A stretch of DNA of 48,132 nucleotides, taken from positions 200,001 to 248,132 of the forward strand of contig MFNE01000010.1 of assembly GCA_001783695.1 (NCBI GenBank). The letters are read 5' to 3'. A program made the translations under genes and the position numbers. Positions within the stretch are counted from its first letter, which is position 1. Every line of letters begins with the position of its first letter. This stretch comes from Candidatus Lambdaproteobacteria bacterium RIFOXYD2_FULL_50_16. GTDB taxonomy: Bacteria > SAR324 > XYD2-FULL-50-16. Under the pieces are notes generated by a model. The model was not told where the DNA came from and searched no databases. It was given only the letters and a program-made list of their open reading frames with translations. Below are positions 16,221 through 26,084 of this stretch, piece by piece.

Positions 16221-17027
16221 ATGGATTTATCCTCAGTGTTGGGACTAGTAGGCGTGTTTGTGGTGTTCCTATTTGGGGTTATGTACGAAAACGGGGGGCT
16301 TCACCCAGAATACCTCATATTTATGTGGAACGCCCCAAGTATGATCATCGTGGCAGGGGGTGCCTTTGTCGCCACTATGGGGTCCTTTCCTATCGACATG
16401 TTTTTGCGTCTAGGCGGGGTCATCGGTTCCGTTTTCAAAGGCAAAAACGTTCCTTTGATCGAAACCTTAGTGATCATCGTAGATGTGGCTAAAGTGGCGC
16501 GGAAAAACGTTTTGGCAATCGAAGACAGCCTACCTTCGATTGAAAACGAATTTTTAAGAAACGGGCTTCGGTTGGTGGTGGACCGGGTGGACCGGGAACT
16601 TATCACTGAAATCATGGTTTCTGAGATGAAATATTCCCTCGCCCAACAAGAATCGGAAGTGGAGATGGTCAAGATCATGGCCACTTACGCCCCGGCGTTT
16701 GGGATGTTTGGGACCTTGATTGGATTGGTATTAATGTTACAGTCCCTCGATGATATTTCGACGGTAGGCCCCAAGATGTCGGTAGCTTTGATCACGACGC
16801 TTTACGGGTCTTTATTTTCCTCCGGCTTTTTTACTCCTTGGTCGATGAACCTCAAAGCAGGGATTAAATCTCGAACCGTTTTGTTCGAAATGATTCGGGA
16901 CGGAGTGTTGTTTATCGAAAAAAACGAACGGGCCGAGTTTATCGAGCAAGATTTGATGAACTACCTGTCCCCTAGCTTAAAAGCCAAATACGAAGAACTG
17001 AAGTTTAGCGCCGACAAAGGAGGCTAG
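16221..17027 (+). CDS. motA: Flagellar stator protein MotA (PomA-like)
   Basis: MotA forms, with MotB, the ion channel that powers flagellar rotation in the inner membrane. The 268-residue protein has the normal four membrane segments (near 5-21, 33-52, 152-172, 184-206). The large cytoplasmic loop between the second and third carries charged residues for rotor contact (VDRVDRELITEIM). The third segment contains the family stretch APAFGMFGTLIGLV. The opening MDLSSVLGLVGVF is closer to sodium-type PomA than to E. coli MotA. AAGGA precedes the ATG. The motB start is two bases after its stop. Length rules out the long-tailed ZorA form. Confidence 0.93.
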   Translation: MDLSSVLGLVGVFVVFLFGVMYENGGLHPEYLIFMWNAPSMIIVAGGAFVATMGSFPIDMFLRLGGVIGSVFKGKNVPLIETLVIIVDVAKVARKNVLAIEDSLPSIENEFLRNGLRLVVDRVDRELITEIMVSEMKYSLAQQESEVEMVKIMATYAPAFGMFGTLIGLVLMLQSLDDISTVGPKMSVALITTLYGSLFSSGFFTPWSMNLKAGIKSRTVLFEMIRDGVLFIEKNERAEFIEQDLMNYLSPSLKAKYEELKFSADKGG

Positions 17028-17029
17028 CC

Positions 17030-17677
17030 ATGGCTGTAGAAGAAGAATGCACTTGTCCCGAGGTAGCGGAACGGGAAGAATGGATCTACACCTATGGGGA
17101 CATGGTGACCCTGCTGTTGTGTTTTTTCATTTTGCTGTTCGCTATGTCTAAGTCGGAAGCGGAGCTATTCAAAGCTGTTTCTGCCAGCTTCGCTGGAGGC
17201 CCTCCTGCCTCACCGTTCCAATTTGCCGGGATGCCTACCTTTATGGAGTCCCTCGAATCATCGATGCAAAAAAGCTCGGTCGGGGAAAGCACCGAGATTA
17301 CGGTTGACGACCGGGGAATTACGGTCAGTTTTGCGGATACGGTGATGTTTGAACACGGCTCTGCCAACATTAGCGAGGGCGGGGCCAAGGTTTTAGAGGC
17401 TTTCAGCCGGATCGTTCACGCCATACCTAATAGCATGGTGATCGAGGGGCATACGGACGACCAACATATGACCGGCGGGGCCTACCCTTCGAACTGGGAA
17501 CTCTCTGGAGCCCGCGCGGGAGCCGTTGCGCGATTGATGGAAGAGTATGGGGTCAAACGAAACCGCATGGAAATCGCTGGATACGCAGACACCAGACCAA
17601 GGGTTGCTAACGAAACCGCCTCGCTTCGTCGCTTAAACCGCCGGATTGATGTTTTGATCAAACCCGCTGGGATGTAA
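17030..17677 (+). CDS. motB: Flagellar stator protein MotB (PomB-like), OmpA family
   Basis: MotB anchors the stator to peptidoglycan and carries the ion-binding Asp. The 215 residues hold a short cytoplasmic start, one membrane segment with Asp24 in YGDMVTLLLCFFILLFAMS, a plug/linker, and an OmpA-like domain with VIEGHTDDQ and LSGARAGAV followed by NRRIDVLI. The membrane segment, with Cys and Phe-Phe after Leu, resembles sodium-driven PomB; this is suggestive only. AAAGGAGG lies upstream of the ATG. A strong terminator follows 24 bases after the stop. Confidence 0.93.
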   Translation: MAVEEECTCPEVAEREEWIYTYGDMVTLLLCFFILLFAMSKSEAELFKAVSASFAGGPPASPFQFAGMPTFMESLESSMQKSSVGESTEITVDDRGITVSFADTVMFEHGSANISEGGAKVLEAFSRIVHAIPNSMVIEGHTDDQHMTGGAYPSNWELSGARAGAVARLMEEYGVKRNRMEIAGYADTRPRVANETASLRRLNRRIDVLIKPAGM

Positions 17678-17700
17678 GCCTGCTTACCTGAAAAACAGAG

Positions 17701-17742
17701 AAAAGGGCCCCTTTCAAATCTTGGAAGGGGCCCTTTTTTTTT
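17701..17742 (+). terminator. Strong intrinsic terminator of motAB
   Basis: AAAAGGGCCCCTT at 17701-17713 pairs perfectly with AAGGGGCCCTTTT at 17725-17737 across an 11-base loop, followed by more T to 17742. It isolates motAB from the large gene downstream. Confidence 0.9.
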
Positions 17743-17758
17743 GACTTTGGATTGCGGC

Positions 17759-17788
17759 TTGACTTAAGCCCCTTTAGGAACGCAAAAT
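17759..17788 (+). promoter_or_regulatory. Candidate promoter of the large coiled-coil gene
   Basis: TTGACT at 17759-17764 and CAAAAT at 17783-17788 are 18 bases apart, with five and four matches to consensus. It lies just after the motAB terminator and about 44 bases before the ATG, where a separate promoter is needed. Confidence 0.4.
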
Positions 17789-17831: not shown

Positions 17832-20800
17832 ATGGCCGGTCTTAAAGATCACATCCGAGTTCAAATCTGTTGTGCCGACCTTGCGGTAGAGCGCCAAGCC
17901 TTGCTCAAAGAGCAAATCGGCGACCAGCTTACAAGGCTTAATCAAGAAGATCCTTCGGTGTTACGAGAGATGGTGTTTATCTCTAATAACGACCTGCGCC
18001 CGATTGATGCGGTCTTGACAGCAAACCCCAAAGCAGATGTCGTGTTCTCGGGTTTTAACGTCACTAGGGTGACCGAGAAGGGCAATAAAGCCTCCGAAGC
18101 GATGGTCGATGAGACCAATAGTACTGGGCTTAATATTGACCCAACCTTGCGTTTGGGTGCCTATATCCAACTCCAAAAAATGATCGCACGCGGCCAGTTT
18201 AAGATGCGCCGTATGATCTTTGTGGGGCCTCTTAACGAAAGGGTTCGCGAGTTCTTAAAACTAGGTTTTGAGGTCAAAGCCAGTTTCTTTACTGACGCCG
18301 ACCGAACAACGGCGGGCGAGCCAGTCCTGATCAAATCTCCAGCCCAACTCCCCAAAATCGGCGATTTTGCCCAGAAAGGGCAGATCGAACTTAGCGACAT
18401 TCACCAACTCACCATCGGCGATATCACCTTTGACGGGGTGGTCAACATGGAGGAGGAGGGGGGGCACTTTTACGTCAAAGACTTCACCATCGACGATTCA
18501 GTAAAGAAACTTCTCGATCTGGATGGGGAAAAAGCGGTTTTGGTGGCCGAGGCGGTCAAAGAAGAAAAGATGGCCTTTGTGCGTACCAAGAAAGTGGTGC
18601 TTTGTATGCCGCCCGAATTGGCCTCTATTGTTAAAAAGCGGCTCGAATTCGATAAGATGGAGCAGTTATTTCAATATCGGGATCCTAAAGAGGCCCTGAC
18701 TGCGATTGAAGAGTCCAAATCGGGGGGCGTGGCCGACTTTTTAGAAGAAGCTGGGTACGAAGTAGTCAACAAGGTCCTTGAGGCCAAAGACCGTGAAGCG
18801 ATGTTGGTCGCCGTAATCGGCCCTCGCAAGATGCCAACCTACCTCGAACGAGAAATGAAATCGGGCGGGGAAGATCTAAAACTTTTCAGCGACGACCAAG
18901 TAAAGGAACTCTTCGCCGCTGCCGACGATCCCGTATTAAACCGACTGATTGCCAAGGTCCAAGAGACCGATGTGGACGCCTTTTTGGCCCGTATCCCAAG
19001 CGAGGTTAGGGAACCTTTAATAATTCAATTTCTAAAAGACCCTAAAATGGCCGCCGAGGCTTGGCGCGTGATAGGCCCTAAGGCGCAAAAAGAGGTCCTG
19101 GTTGGCCAATGCACTGCTATTTTAGCGGCGGCCATGTTGACCAACACCGCTTTGTTTAAAGCTAAGTTGCCCAAGGTGGTTTTTAACCAAGACCAGTCCT
19201 ACGATTCGGCCAAACAATTTAAAAGCCTAGATGCAGCCGGAATCAAGCTGCGCATGGAGATCTTCGCCGAGGGGCTGGCTGGAAAAAGCCTGACCTATGC
19301 CGAATGGGCCACCAGCTTCGAAGAAGAAGAACGTGAATCGATCTTAAGCCAGTACATCGCCATTAAAACAGACGACTTTTTTAACAACCTTGAAGGCAGT
19401 TACAAAAAAATCATCTGGAACGTGATCGGTAAAAAAGGGCAAAAAGATATTTCCGTCAAATTAACAGGCCCTCATAAACGCGCCATTTTGACGGCTTCTA
19501 AAGAGCAGAGTTTAGGGATTATTAAGACAGACATTGCTTATCTAGCCGGGATCCTGGCTAAAGACCAGGGCCTAGCTTTTGGCGAAACCCTGTTTTTGTC
19601 CTTAAAACAGTTTAATAAGGTCGAATCCAAAACAGGCCTGTTTAAAAAACTAACCACCGACGAAAAACACAAGCCCTTTCGGGTCGAAGGGGTCACCAAG
19701 CTACTGGCCAGCGAGCGGGGCAAACCTATTTTTGAAAAGCTGACCGAACAGATCGACGCATTAAATGTGGGTTATGATTCGTTGATCACCATGCGTGAGT
19801 TTGCCCCTGCCTTAACTGCCCATGAGGCGTTAGCCGGGGCCACGGTCACTATCGTCGAGGACCTGGTGGACACCAGTCTGCTGGAGATGTTTGCCAAGGG
19901 GGAAGTGGATTTTGGCTCTTACGAGGAGCATCAAAAGCAGGTCGAAAAAAAGATTGCCGCGCTCAAAGAGCAACTGAGGTCAAAAGGGGCCGACGACCCG
20001 GTGGGCGGGTATCTCTTAGAAACCATGGTTATTATGATGAACATGGCTTCCGAAGCCCTGCAAAACAAACTCGACCAAAAAATGCTAGATGCCCTAGATG
20101 AGCGGGGCAAGGTTAAACAGGAGGTTTTAGACAACGTTGCTAAAAGACTTTCCCAACTTGAAGAAAGGGTGACCAATTACAAACTCAAGCTGCCCGAGAT
20201 GGGAAAGCGGCTTGAGGCCGACAGTGAAAAGGTAAAGTCCTACGCGGCATTGGTGGGAGAAAAATTAAACAAACTGCAATTAAGTCTGCAAAAATACCAA
20301 GACGCCGAAACTAAGCTTAATCAATATCAGCGTTTGAAGGTCAAGGTGGCCCGGGTCCAGCAGCAATTAAGCGAGCGATTTTTCGAAATCATCCGCCCCT
20401 TGATTTTGCAAAAACTACGGATTTTGCCCGCCCCCATGGCCAGGGTGATCGACTCGTTTAAACAAAGCTTTTTGTCCAACTCGATCCCTAAGCACCGGCT
20501 GATTTTTAAGTTTACTGATGACGAACTCAAAGGCATTGCCAAGCGCAACGTGGTTTTTGCTACGGAAGACAAGATACTCAAAGCCTTTATTGTCACCTGT
20601 CTGCACATCGACAAGTTAGACAATACCCTGTTTATGATCAGCGGCCTCGACGACCTGCCTGAAAAACCAGACCTCCTGTTTGTAGGTAACGACCTCCTAG
20701 AATATGACTTTTCAGAAATCATTAAGGAACAGTTCACCGTTCCCTTTGCAGACGATGCCTTTTATAAAACACTCAGCACCAACGAGTCCCAAAAAGCGGC

Positions 20801-21713
20801 GATTCGCGCTAACTTAGAGAAATATCGCGAATACCGAGACAAATACAAAAATTACCTCGAAACCGAAGGCTCCAAGCTCAAGGTGATGGCGGTTAGTCAA
20901 AAAACCCGGACAGATGCCATTGAAAAACTGCGGGCCAACCGGAAAAAGTATCAAGAAAGCCTAAAAGTTGACCAAGAACGGTTGGCTTTTTTAAAGGCTG
21001 AACAAGAAAGCCTCGGGGCCAAGTTCGAGGCGATTGACGATAAATTTAAGGCCGCTAAATCAGCCATAACCCAAGCTATTAGCTCGGGCCAATCGACCGC
21101 GACTACCATTACTCAGCAAACCCAAGCCATGTCCCAAGGGCTTTCGAAGCATTTAGAAGACATTAACAAAGACTTGGCCGGGATGATGTTTGTTAAAAAC
21201 GTCAAGGACACGGTGGAGCGGATCAGTTCAACAGCGCAAGAGCAAATCATCTCTAAAGTGGACCAGCTTTCAGTGATTCCTGGGGGTAAAGCGGCGGTCA
21301 AGCATATAGTGGTTTCTGGCGATGGAATGCTTGAGACCATGGAGATGCAAAAGGCCTTTGCCACGGCAATCAAGTCCTACTTTGGCCAACAAATCAAATT
21401 CGAAGAACTGGGCCTCGGGCGTATGGAGGCGGAGATTGTAGAGGAAGGAAAACGGCCTCACTTGGTTATCATACTGATGAACGATGAGCCCTCTGGGCTC
21501 GCCAACCTTGCGGGTTTAGCTAAACGATTACGCGCCGTTAGCCCAGAAAGTTGTGTTTTAATGTTTTCTGCCTATCAAATGGAAGAAGCGAGCGCCGAAT
21601 TAATCCACAACCTCAACACGCTGCGAAAATATGCCACCCCAATAAACACCAACCTGACTGATTATACCGTTTCCGCAAAGGTGACCAAACTTTTGGGCCA
21701 AGTGGCACCCTAA
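17832..21713 (+). CDS. 1293-residue protein with four pseudo-receiver-like modules and long coiled coils
   Basis: No family is recognised. The protein is cytoplasmic, with no signal or membrane segment. Four regions look like receiver (CheY-like) folds by their beta-helix pattern: about residues 5-150 (third strand ADVVFSGFN), 252-365 (LVAVIGPRK), 905-980 (PDLLFVGND) and 1155-1290 (PHLVIILMND). In each, the position of the phosphate-accepting Asp is Gly or Leu, so phosphorylation is unlikely. A helical middle (about 365-690) leads into long coiled coils (about 695-850 and 985-1075) around the third module. A small beta-rich piece is at 180-240. AGGGGGG precedes the ATG. It is followed three bases later by the methyltransferase. 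A scaffold or signalling hub is inferred, not shown. Confidence 0.7.
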   Translation: MAGLKDHIRVQICCADLAVERQALLKEQIGDQLTRLNQEDPSVLREMVFISNNDLRPIDAVLTANPKADVVFSGFNVTRVTEKGNKASEAMVDETNSTGLNIDPTLRLGAYIQLQKMIARGQFKMRRMIFVGPLNERVREFLKLGFEVKASFFTDADRTTAGEPVLIKSPAQLPKIGDFAQKGQIELSDIHQLTIGDITFDGVVNMEEEGGHFYVKDFTIDDSVKKLLDLDGEKAVLVAEAVKEEKMAFVRTKKVVLCMPPELASIVKKRLEFDKMEQLFQYRDPKEALTAIEESKSGGVADFLEEAGYEVVNKVLEAKDREAMLVAVIGPRKMPTYLEREMKSGGEDLKLFSDDQVKELFAAADDPVLNRLIAKVQETDVDAFLARIPSEVREPLIIQFLKDPKMAAEAWRVIGPKAQKEVLVGQCTAILAAAMLTNTALFKAKLPKVVFNQDQSYDSAKQFKSLDAAGIKLRMEIFAEGLAGKSLTYAEWATSFEEEERESILSQYIAIKTDDFFNNLEGSYKKIIWNVIGKKGQKDISVKLTGPHKRAILTASKEQSLGIIKTDIAYLAGILAKDQGLAFGETLFLSLKQFNKVESKTGLFKKLTTDEKHKPFRVEGVTKLLASERGKPIFEKLTEQIDALNVGYDSLITMREFAPALTAHEALAGATVTIVEDLVDTSLLEMFAKGEVDFGSYEEHQKQVEKKIAALKEQLRSKGADDPVGGYLLETMVIMMNMASEALQNKLDQKMLDALDERGKVKQEVLDNVAKRLSQLEERVTNYKLKLPEMGKRLEADSEKVKSYAALVGEKLNKLQLSLQKYQDAETKLNQYQRLKVKVARVQQQLSERFFEIIRPLILQKLRILPAPMARVIDSFKQSFLSNSIPKHRLIFKFTDDELKGIAKRNVVFATEDKILKAFIVTCLHIDKLDNTLFMISGLDDLPEKPDLLFVGNDLLEYDFSEIIKEQFTVPFADDAFYKTLSTNESQKAAIRANLEKYREYRDKYKNYLETEGSKLKVMAVSQKTRTDAIEKLRANRKKYQESLKVDQERLAFLKAEQESLGAKFEAIDDKFKAAKSAITQAISSGQSTATTITQQTQAMSQGLSKHLEDINKDLAGMMFVKNVKDTVERISSTAQEQIISKVDQLSVIPGGKAAVKHIVVSGDGMLETMEMQKAFATAIKSYFGQQIKFEELGLGRMEAEIVEEGKRPHLVIILMNDEPSGLANLAGLAKRLRAVSPESCVLMFSAYQMEEASAELIHNLNTLRKYATPINTNLTDYTVSAKVTKLLGQVAP

Positions 21714-21716
21714 GCG

Positions 21717-22355
21717 ATGGAACTGCTAGCGGTGGAAGCTTATTTTTCCGGGCTAGAAGGCGCTTTGCCCGACTCGTTAAAACGCGTCAAAGACTATGCT
21801 TTAGAACACCAAGTGCCCGTCGTATCAGACCAAGTGGGAGGGTTTCTAAAACTTTTGTGTGGCTTGACCAAGCCAAAACGGATTTTAGAATTAGGCTCGG
21901 GGATCTCCTATTCGACCCACTGGATGCTTTTGGGTTGGCCAAATGCCCAGATCGTCTCGGTTGACGCCAACGGGGACCGGATCGAATTGGCTAGAGGATT
22001 TTTAGAAGCCTCGGGCGCTTTGACACAAGTAGAGTTACATAGTTCCTGGATCGAACCCTTTTTAGAGACCCGTTTGGGCGAATTTGACTTGATATTCTTA
22101 GACTCGGTCAAAAAGGACTATGCAACCCTTCTATCCCAATGTTATAAAATTCTACTCCCAGAAGGCCTACTAGTGGCAGATAATATCCTTTATCAAGGCA
22201 AGGTTCTCTCTCTCTTGCCTGAACAAGAAAAGAAATATGCCGCTGGTGTCGGGTCAATAAAGGCCTTTAATCAAGCGGTAGCTGAACATCCGGCCCTAGA
22301 TGCCCATTTCCTAAGTATTGGAGATGGATTGTTAGTGGCCCGAAAACTAGCCTGA
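21717..22355 (+). CDS. SAM-dependent O-methyltransferase (COG4122 type)
   Basis: A 212-residue class I methyltransferase. The SAM-binding motif I is RILELGSGISYST near residue 61, the acidic end of the second strand is VSVDANGDRIELA near 79, and FDLIFLDSVKKDY near 122 is the family's metal-binding acidic motif. The LPEGLLVADNILYQGKV segment agrees with catechol/caffeoyl-CoA O-methyltransferase-like proteins. The substrate is unknown. It begins three bases after the 1293-residue protein's stop, so a shared transcript is likely. A link to that protein's function is possible but unproved. Confidence 0.85.
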   Translation: MELLAVEAYFSGLEGALPDSLKRVKDYALEHQVPVVSDQVGGFLKLLCGLTKPKRILELGSGISYSTHWMLLGWPNAQIVSVDANGDRIELARGFLEASGALTQVELHSSWIEPFLETRLGEFDLIFLDSVKKDYATLLSQCYKILLPEGLLVADNILYQGKVLSLLPEQEKKYAAGVGSIKAFNQAVAEHPALDAHFLSIGDGLLVARKLA

Positions 22356-22356
22356 T

Positions 22357-23229
22357 ATGTCCGTACCTGTAAATCTTCTTAAGCCGGATCAGCGTTTTTG
22401 GTACGCCAAACTTGTGCTTTCGGCTATTTTAGCCGATGGCGAGATTGATTCGGCAGAGGTCGATTTTTTAAGAGGGGTGATCGGGGTGGTCCAAGCGCCT
22501 GAGTTAAAGGCGAACTTGATGCAGTATGTGCAAGCCAAAAAACCACCTGAAGTCAATGAACCACCAAGCAAAATCCCAGATCAAGTTTTGGCCGCTATCT
22601 TTGCAGAACTGATTCTGATTTGTATTTCAGATCATGACTTTGCCGAAGAAGAAGAGGCGTTTTTGCGCAAAGTGGCCGATGTAATGCTACTAACCGAGCC
22701 CTTTTACCGCTCAATGATGGCTTGGTTAAACGAAGGGTTAAGCTGGAAAAAGGCTCAAGCCGAACTCTTGCCTGCTGAATTAGGAATCAACCCAGGCGAG
22801 GTGCCCCTTAAAGACTTTGATTCTGAACAAAAGTTTTGGTATGCCAAGCTTGTGATCATCACCTTAATGTTAGATGGTCAGGTAGATGAAATGGAACTTA
22901 GTTTTATGAAAATGGCCATTTCTTTCTGCGAAGAAGACCACCAAAAAAAGAAACTAATGGCGTTTGTTAAAAACCGCCTAAGTCCAAATTTAGAAGAACC
23001 TTATGGGTTTTCTAGGTCTCAATTGGTTGCGGTGTTTGTTTCTATACTACAGATTGTCACTGCCAATGAATCAATGACTTATAAGGAACAGACCTACCTT
23101 AAGCAGCTTTCTGATTTATGTGGGTTCGACAAGGCCTTGTTTGACCGGCTGATTAACTGGGCCACACAAGGAATGAACTGGAAGGCTAACAAAAACGGGT
23201 TAATCCAAAGAGTCCGTCGTAAAACCTAA
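22357..23229 (+). CDS. Duplicated TerB-like protein
   Basis: The 290 residues consist of two copies of one module of about 123 residues. Copy one (11-133) opens with DQRFWYAKLVLSAILADGEI and closes with MMAWLNEGLSWKKA. Copy two (157-278) opens with EQKFWYAKLVIITLMLDGQV and closes with LINWATQGMNWKA. Each begins with a TerB-like acidic helix pair (ADGEIDSAEVDFL, LDGQVDEMELSFM) and has a second acidic pair later. It is distantly like the two TerB-like proteins at 5623-6556, but larger. The ATG follows the methyltransferase TGA by one base. Function unknown. Confidence 0.65.
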   Translation: MSVPVNLLKPDQRFWYAKLVLSAILADGEIDSAEVDFLRGVIGVVQAPELKANLMQYVQAKKPPEVNEPPSKIPDQVLAAIFAELILICISDHDFAEEEEAFLRKVADVMLLTEPFYRSMMAWLNEGLSWKKAQAELLPAELGINPGEVPLKDFDSEQKFWYAKLVIITLMLDGQVDEMELSFMKMAISFCEEDHQKKKLMAFVKNRLSPNLEEPYGFSRSQLVAVFVSILQIVTANESMTYKEQTYLKQLSDLCGFDKALFDRLINWATQGMNWKANKNGLIQRVRRKT

Positions 23230-23981: not shown

Positions 23982-26084
23982 TTAACCCTTTTCGGTCAAT
24001 TTCCAGACGCCGTTCCAATCCTCAGCGGGAGGGTTGAGAATCAAGTGCTTGCAGCGTTCAAAATAGGTAATACTAGGCCCGTCTTTAGGGTCAATCTCCA
24101 GCGCCTTTTTAAACATTTCCGCTGCGTCCTTAAAGCGCCGATCCTTGTAAACCTGAAGGGCTTTTAGGTAGGCCTCGACAAGGTCTGCCTTTTGCCCAGG
24201 GGTCTGGTTTTTGCGGGCTAAGAGGTCGTAAACCGTGATCGGAAGGTCTTTGCCCACAACGGTTATCACGTCCAATTCGCGCACATCGATGTTATCTTTG
24301 GCTTCTTCGTAGGTGAAGTGCGAGATCATGGTGAAGTTTTTATAAAACTTGTTCGCCCCTTCTAGTCGAGCGGCCAAGTTCACCGAGTCGCCCATCATGG
24401 TATAGTCCATCCGGTTTTGGCTCCCCATGTTCCCTACTACCATGGGTCCGGTGTTGATCCCTTGGCGCACGTGCAAAAGAGGCCTGCCTTCCGCCTTTAA
24501 TTGTTCGCGCATCGCAATTAATCGCTCTTGCATGTCAATGGCCGCGTGGCAAGCCCGCGTGGCGTGATCTGGTTGTTCTAAAGGCGCGCCCCAAAAGGCG
24601 ATAATGGCATCCCCTTCAAACTTGTCCACGGTCCCATCATGTTTAGAGATCAACTCGCACATGTCGGTTAGATAATAGTTAAGCAAATGTACCAACTCTT
24701 CGGGAGTCAAAGACTCGGAGATGGTCGAAAAGCCTTGCACATCACTAAAATAAGCGGTCATGACCCGCCGCTCACCACCTAAACTTAGCCGGGAAGGGTC
24801 CTCGACCAGGGCCTCGATAACCGCTGGGCTTAGGTATTGACCAAAGGCACCGGTAATAAAACTCTTTTGTTTACGCTCCTGAATAAACAGGTGAATGTTA
24901 ATAAACACCGTTCCCATTACCGCCGCTATGAGGAGGTAAGACATGGAGAAAACTAAATTCAGGTTTACGTAAGCAAAGGAACAAAAGGCGAAGTAACCGA
25001 AAAATAATAAGGTCAACGCCGGGAAACGCAATTTCGGATCCGAAATAAAATGGAAACCGATCAAAAACACCATAAATATTAAAATCATCGCGGCCTCGGC
25101 CTCTGCGGAAGCAGATTTTAGGGGAGCGCCTTTAAGAATGGTTGAAACCTCATAAGCCATTACCTCGACCCCGTAAACCTCGCCTACTAGGGTGTTGAAA
25201 ATATCGTGGCTAACCTCGGAGGTGTCCCCAATAAATACGATTTTATCTTTAACCAAACGCGCCATATCTTCGACGTCGTCTTCCTCCTCCATGTCTAATT
25301 CATAGAGGTCCATCGCCGGAATCCCCACAAAGGGGTCTTGCGTCAAAAACCGCATTCCTGCGCCCAAGGGGCTGTAATCAATCCTAAAATCCCCAAATTG
25401 ATCCAACTGAATCACCTTGTCGCCCACCACCAATTGGCCGGCATCATTAAATTTGGGTTGGGTACCTAAAAGCCAAGCAGCAGCCAAAACCGAACAGGGC
25501 CATTCGTTTAGATTTTTCGCCGCCTCGGGGTATAGCCGCAATCGGTTGAGCATGTTGCCCATTTCCGTGTGGTTGCTATAGGCCGTGGCCGTGGCGGCTA
25601 GCAGGGTGGGGGCGGGCTGGCTAATGCCTTCGATCTTACCCCCGCGCACCTTTAACATCGAGACCAAGATGGTATTTTCTGCTTGTTTTAAGCTCTCGGC
25701 CATAATCGGGTCTTCCCCATAACTCGAAGGGAAGTCCATCAGCATGTCGATCATTACCACTTTAGCACCCATGGTAGCCAATTTTTCTGCCATTTTGCCA
25801 ACGTCTGCCCGGCGCAGGGGGAAGCTGCCGTATTCTTTAAAAAAGGGCTCGTCTAGGTTAACTATCGCAATCTTATCTTTGGCAAAGGCAGTGGTTTCGG
25901 CAGGCGCGTAGCCGTTACGAAGAATATGGCGCACCGATAGGGTTTGGTTTTCTAAGGTGGAAAACCATTCCTGCCGCTCTGCGGGTATCATCAATAAAAA
26001 TAAAATAATAGCCGCCCAAACGTCATATCTAGTAATTAAATCCTTTATGGCAAAGGACTGTTTCTTTTTTTTCTTAGCAGCCAT
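23982..26084 (-). CDS. CHASE2-domain class III adenylate cyclase with TPR tail
   Basis: Predicted to make cAMP in response to an extracytoplasmic signal. Order in 700 residues: basic N-terminus and one membrane segment (22-35), periplasmic CHASE2 domain (45-320), three membrane segments (332-348, 354-375, 380-400), cyclase domain (435-620), TPR-like helices (632-680). Metal ligands are Asp448 (FSDVQGF) and Asp492 (GDAIIAFWGAP). Substrate-selecting Lys488 and Thr562 fit ATP over GTP. Transition-state residues Asn569 and Arg573 (VNLAARLE) are present, so the enzyme looks active. A FecR-like gene lies upstream on the same strand, behind a terminator. Confidence 0.92.
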   Translation of the reverse strand: MAAKKKKKQSFAIKDLITRYDVWAAIILFLLMIPAERQEWFSTLENQTLSVRHILRNGYAPAETTAFAKDKIAIVNLDEPFFKEYGSFPLRRADVGKMAEKLATMGAKVVMIDMLMDFPSSYGEDPIMAESLKQAENTILVSMLKVRGGKIEGISQPAPTLLAATATAYSNHTEMGNMLNRLRLYPEAAKNLNEWPCSVLAAAWLLGTQPKFNDAGQLVVGDKVIQLDQFGDFRIDYSPLGAGMRFLTQDPFVGIPAMDLYELDMEEEDDVEDMARLVKDKIVFIGDTSEVSHDIFNTLVGEVYGVEVMAYEVSTILKGAPLKSASAEAEAAMILIFMVFLIGFHFISDPKLRFPALTLLFFGYFAFCSFAYVNLNLVFSMSYLLIAAVMGTVFINIHLFIQERKQKSFITGAFGQYLSPAVIEALVEDPSRLSLGGERRVMTAYFSDVQGFSTISESLTPEELVHLLNYYLTDMCELISKHDGTVDKFEGDAIIAFWGAPLEQPDHATRACHAAIDMQERLIAMREQLKAEGRPLLHVRQGINTGPMVVGNMGSQNRMDYTMMGDSVNLAARLEGANKFYKNFTMISHFTYEEAKDNIDVRELDVITVVGKDLPITVYDLLARKNQTPGQKADLVEAYLKALQVYKDRRFKDAAEMFKKALEIDPKDGPSITYFERCKHLILNPPAEDWNGVWKLTEKG

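Follow-up and report, generated by a model that had tools for sequence, protein, structure and literature searches.

We tentatively favour reading the 1293-residue protein encoded at 17832..21713 (+) of the window, that is, of the whole 48,132-nt stretch of DNA analysed here, as a cytoplasmic, SAR324-specific scaffold of two-component signalling, with degenerate receiver-like domains and, in the bacterial family that we call f4, a CheY-like regulator as its partner. The original prediction, a non-phosphorylated scaffold or hub of receiver-like domains perhaps tied to motility, was thus partly right. A non-enzymatic scaffold is still the best reading, and a plausible one with a better partner; the receiver part holds only as a flavodoxin-like fold of the C-terminal domain, one of the predicted segments was misplaced, and the tie to motility is not supported. 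A CheY-like regulator that lacks an output domain has to work by binding other proteins, many of which are unknown, and the scaffold family would be one half of such a pair, conserved in a phylum that is widespread and uncultured.

Conservation and distribution of the gene

The open reading frame was confirmed as real. Compared with its 63% identical orthologue in genome G002, dN is 0.31 and dS is 2.04, with changes mostly at third codon positions. These values mark it as a conserved protein and, as far as sequence comparison goes, it is under purifying selection. No membrane segment is predicted (the highest 19-residue Kyte-Doolittle mean is 1.48), in agreement with the cytoplasmic location first proposed. 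The protein was also said to belong to no described family, and in fact neither Pfam nor NCBIfam has a family that covers it; Rfam gave no match anywhere in the window. Searching solved structures by sequence returned only coiled-coil and chance-level matches. Two other leads were dropped: models of defence systems matched only coiled-coil stretches, weakly, and hits in a viral fold library were generic, among them GDSL lipases and SMC-like proteins.

The genome of the window (G000) is 3.14 Mb in 54 contigs. In the collections searched its nearest named relative is Candidatus Lambdaproteobacteria bacterium RIFOXYD2_FULL_56_26, and further relatives carry the name SAR324 cluster bacteria. Protein and profile searches found the scaffold gene in 11 of 52 SAR324 genomes (three in family f1, one in f2, seven in f4 and none in f3), many of the genomes compared being incomplete and metagenome-assembled, which bears on the absences. 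The gene is apparently single-copy in its carriers; the copy of G032, at the end of a contig, comprises just a C-terminal fragment (57 aa). Across SAR324 the protein is conserved at full length, with 28-33% identity over about 1290 residues. The 331 genomes searched outside SAR324 gave four weak partial matches, mostly to coiled-coil stretches, and among all genomes searched the family appears, by sequence, to be restricted to this candidate phylum. In the gene tree f1 stands apart from f4. Given this split by bacterial family, the gene looks vertically inherited and repeatedly lost, a view in which the incompleteness of many genomes has to be kept in mind. The copy of G005 has one in-frame TAG (L023:8143-8145), which reflects either a nonsense mutation or a fault in the assembly.

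Domain anatomy and the receiver question

AlphaFold2, run with four sequences and shallow alignments, modelled residues 722-1293 with moderate confidence (mean pLDDT 71.7) and residues 1-721 poorly (mean 54.4, mostly below 70). The predicted parts are listed in Table 1 together with the neighbouring genes.

Table 1. Predicted parts of the scaffold protein and neighbouring features (window coordinates unless a locus is named)
Feature	Position	Strand	Basis or remark
motA	16221-17027	+	neighbour, outside scaffold unit
motB	17030-17677	+	neighbour, outside scaffold unit
Strong intrinsic terminator between motB and scaffold gene	17698..17740	+	20-pair stem, T run
N-terminal alpha/beta domain (aa 10-153), b1a1b2a2b3a3b4a4b5	17859..18290	+	model, low confidence
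Beta-rich segment (aa 187-220)	18390..18491	+	model
Split alpha/beta domain, first half (aa 255-293)	18594..18710	+	model, homologue L030
Helical insert (aa 308-641), ~330 residues	18753..19754	+	model
Split alpha/beta domain, second half (aa 650-674)	19779..19853	+	model, homologue L030
Coiled coil 1 (aa 759-862)	20106..20417	+	model
Third alpha/beta domain (aa 907-969), four strands	20550..20738	+	model
Coiled coil 2 (aa 975-1127)	20754..21212	+	model
C-terminal (beta/alpha)5 domain (aa 1158-1291)	21303..21704	+	model, moderate confidence
O-methyltransferase (OMT)	21717-22355	+	starts 3 bp after scaffold gene's stop
TerB-domain protein	22357-23229	+	after OMT
About 340-aa gene	L025:5252-6268, L026:683-1708, L077:636-1703	-	upstream of f4 regulator

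The C-terminal domain shows the (beta/alpha)5 order in full, with moderate confidence. The N-terminal domain follows the same order with low confidence (pLDDT about 42-64, falling to about 30 in the 80-110 loop), and for the split and the third domain no more than four strands apiece are predicted. Of the four segments originally proposed as receiver-like, VVFSGFN (strand 70-74), LLFVGND (948-951) and VIILMND (1211-1215) do fall on predicted strands; LVAVIGPRK (about 325-333) lies within a predicted helix, 318-343, of the helical middle. On the model, the second alpha/beta domain is more likely formed by residues 255-293 joined to 650-674, the latter with predicted strands 650-653 and 671-674. 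In homologue L030 (964 aa), which is without the helical block, the two elements join directly, so that they probably make up one alpha/beta domain interrupted by the helical insert. The start of this insert bears a likeness to MgtE_N (PF03448) in the form of weak matches in three homologues (about aa 311-396); the best MgtE_N score, 23.7 bits, falls below the gathering score of 25.9. In the window protein the match lies at 253-322, overlapping predicted strands, and could count against the idea of a split domain.

The long coiled coils of the original prediction were recovered as predicted helices 759-862, 975-1085 and 1089-1127, the last two forming coiled coil 2. Two such coils would also suit a structural or architectural protein (a polar organiser, an SMC-like protein or a cytoskeletal tether) whose flavodoxin-like folds are unrelated to receivers. 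Weak matches of SMC models to the coiled coil point the same way, as does the generic nature of the fold matches within the flavodoxin-like class. However, those SMC-model matches are confined to coiled coil (aa 979-1118) and score far below the model cut-offs, the Pfam search recognised no ATPase head domain, and in f4 a conserved single-domain response regulator is encoded upstream. We consider a purely structural role somewhat unlikely, and less probable than the signalling scaffold.

CheY belongs to the flavodoxin-like fold class. Searched by structure, the C-terminal domain gave flavodoxin-like matches (probability 1.00, E about 1e-3). B12-binding, flavodoxin and LarB domains scored best, and CheY was absent from the top 50 of 1084 matches. 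The low-confidence model of residues 1-721 gave no significant fold match. Response_reg (PF00072) has 109 hits in the window's whole genome and none in the scaffold gene; nor was it among the families listed for the window protein, the full-length homologues or eight C-terminal domains. Sequence homology to receivers was also rejected: when profiles were aligned with those of ten receivers, two taken from f4 genomes and eight from the genome of the window, scores stayed at about the level of controls with shuffled columns, those of the split and C-terminal pieces being marginal. When the four domains were compared with one another, only the N-terminal and split domains scored above all 25 shuffles, weakly. 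Thus, 'receiver' is supported for the C-terminal domain only as a modelled flavodoxin-like fold, not as homology, and we infer a descent of the alpha/beta domains from receivers as something that may have happened.

The residues of the putative active site vary within the family. All four segments were said to lack the acceptor Asp, and in the window protein this is true of the positions G74, G952 and N1217; for the C-terminal domain of the family it is not. At the C-terminal beta3 end, seven of eight other members, including the orthologue L022, have Asp and the eighth (L027, from G028) has Gln, while L026 ends before this position. In this domain the missing acceptor is therefore a property of the window copy, and a putative phosphate-accepting position has been lost within one family, with Asp in most members, Asn here and Gln in G028. 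In most members, beta1 of the C-terminal domain is followed by an Asp pair, beta3 has an Asp at its end, beta4 is often followed by a Thr or Ser, and no Lys follows beta5, so that the full receiver set (acidic pair, acceptor Asp, Thr/Ser, Lys) is incomplete in this domain. D1164, the second Asp in the loop after beta1, is shared by 10/10 members; the window copy has G-D where most f4 members have DD. In the N-terminal domain D16, after beta1, is invariant and the beta3 end is without Asp.

A putative CheY-like partner in f4 and the proposed working

Directly upstream of the scaffold gene, in five of six testable f4 genomes, lies a complete CheY-like regulator (G028, G034, G018, G014 and G047; same strand, gaps of about 35 to 720 bases). 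The five cases represent one shared ancestral arrangement; the locus of G040 is cut at a contig end. The regulator keeps all its phosphorylation residues (D-D-D-S-K), and its orthologues are 48-57% identical to the G028 copy, the best matches outside f4 reaching 39% or less. The flanking genes examined, before the regulator and after the scaffold, vary among most of these f4 genomes. It is thus the pair itself that appears to be kept, as a conserved unit in f4. An about 340-aa gene precedes the regulator in three f4 genomes (Table 1); a Pfam match is absent from it, as tested in L025.

The best reading is that the scaffold is the target or partner of this single-domain response regulator. We propose that the degenerate receiver-like (flavodoxin-fold) domains would serve as protein-docking modules along an elongated molecule, to which the coiled coils would give length and dimerisation, the scaffold probably being a dimer. 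In f4 the regulator encoded directly upstream would bring the phosphoryl signal and, once phosphorylated, dock on the helical insert or on a receiver-like domain, changing what the scaffold gathers. Both dimerisation and docking are what we infer, and f1 scaffolds, which have no adjacent orthologue of the f4 regulator, may work in the same way. Several observations speak against a signalling scaffold: the absence of Response_reg matches and the near-shuffled receiver profile comparisons given above, the C-terminal fold matches with no CheY in the top 50, the poor first-half model, the single ancestry of the five f4 arrangements, the contig of G032, where the regulator is followed by 4.5 kb with no scaffold match, and G041, which has the regulator and no scaffold gene. 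A bolder version, in which a single chain with several diverged receiver-like modules, among them one that a large helical insert splits, is the dedicated downstream target of a single-domain regulator, and in which non-phosphorylated relatives of receivers read the phosphoryl signal, would define a new class of signalling scaffold; we regard it as unlikely.

In design, the closest analogues are the pseudo-receiver and coiled-coil proteins FrzS and AglZ of Myxococcus xanthus, FrzS being a motility-control protein with polar localisation (PMC1974792, PMC12632262). The shared traits are a receiver-like domain without a working phosphorylation site, here a likeness of fold, a long coiled coil and, in the scaffold, no predicted transmembrane segment. 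In FrzS there is a single receiver domain, at the N-terminus, with a known crystal structure, whereas the scaffold is predicted to have about four alpha/beta domains alternating with coiled coils, plus a helical insert; none of its domains scores as a receiver, and in f4 its gene shows linkage to that of a complete response regulator. The scaffold is best read as analogous in design to the FrzS/AglZ kind. Pseudo-receivers have been identified computationally as receivers (review: PMC12632262). Unlike them, the scaffold's domains go unrecognised by PF00072, and none of the smaller Pfam receiver families named in that review is among its matches. The likeness lies in the acidic beta1 loop and the lack of the Lys after beta5 in the C-terminal domain, which in most members keeps the beta3-end Asp that the window copy has lost.

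The motAB and f1 neighbourhood

The gene's position suggested another role, a motility hub working with MotAB at the flagellar motor or stator. motAB lies upstream of the scaffold gene in G000 and G002, and MgtE_N, weakly matched in the helical insert, is a domain that also occurs in flagella-associated proteins. However, a strong terminator separates motB from the scaffold gene, and seven f1 genomes, close relatives, have the order motA-motB-OMT-TerB without it, so that the linkage to motAB is positional; a functional link was rejected on these grounds. Nor do homologues always follow motAB: in G005 the scaffold gene is followed by OMT and TerB with motB about 21 kb away, and in no f4 or f2 locus retrieved was motAB found beside the gene. 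FliG is present in 50 of the 52 SAR324 genomes, the scaffold gene in 11, and flagellar motility is generally encoded in SAR324 genomes (PMC9031357), so flagella do not explain the patchy distribution of the scaffold. We hold the motility hub to be highly improbable. What lies upstream in f1 is of a signalling or motility kind in each case (motAB in G000, a hybrid histidine kinase in G002, an MCP in G005), which speaks for the signalling scaffold. The promoter of its own once ascribed to the gene fits the terminator that parts it from motB; the sigma-70-like match at 17759-17788 does not exceed chance expectation, with 3 sites observed in the region against 6.9 expected in shuffles.

Downstream, OMT and TerB adjoin the scaffold gene in all three f1 genomes that carry it. 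This adjacency, and the cofactor-binding domains among the C-terminal fold matches, would agree with alpha/beta domains that bind a small ligand or are enzymatic and have the O-methyltransferase as a pathway partner. Yet OMT and TerB also adjoin each other in f1 genomes without the scaffold gene, neither was found close to the gene in the f4 loci retrieved, and no enzyme family matched over its cut-off. We judge this role very unlikely and retain the signalling scaffold.

A few observations concern the surroundings themselves. The TerB-domain protein has many matches genome-wide (11 in G000); in several relatives it occupies an open frame of about 580 aa, and its G005 version contains DUF2225 as well. 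Near the scaffold gene, 23982-26084 (-) encodes a 700-aa protein with a CHASE2 sensor and an adenylate/guanylate cyclase domain. The window's genome has two strong FliG_C matches (G000:C26:99851-100171 and G000:C39:22911-23231), and several relatives also have two or more. Besides ordinary FliG, many SAR324 genomes have a frame of about 600-660 aa with a diverged FliG_C match, for example G000:C17:30164-30397 (612-aa frame, L043) and G018:C209:11525-11842 (657-aa frame, L044), in both of which a hydrophobic, probably membrane-spanning stretch precedes the match.
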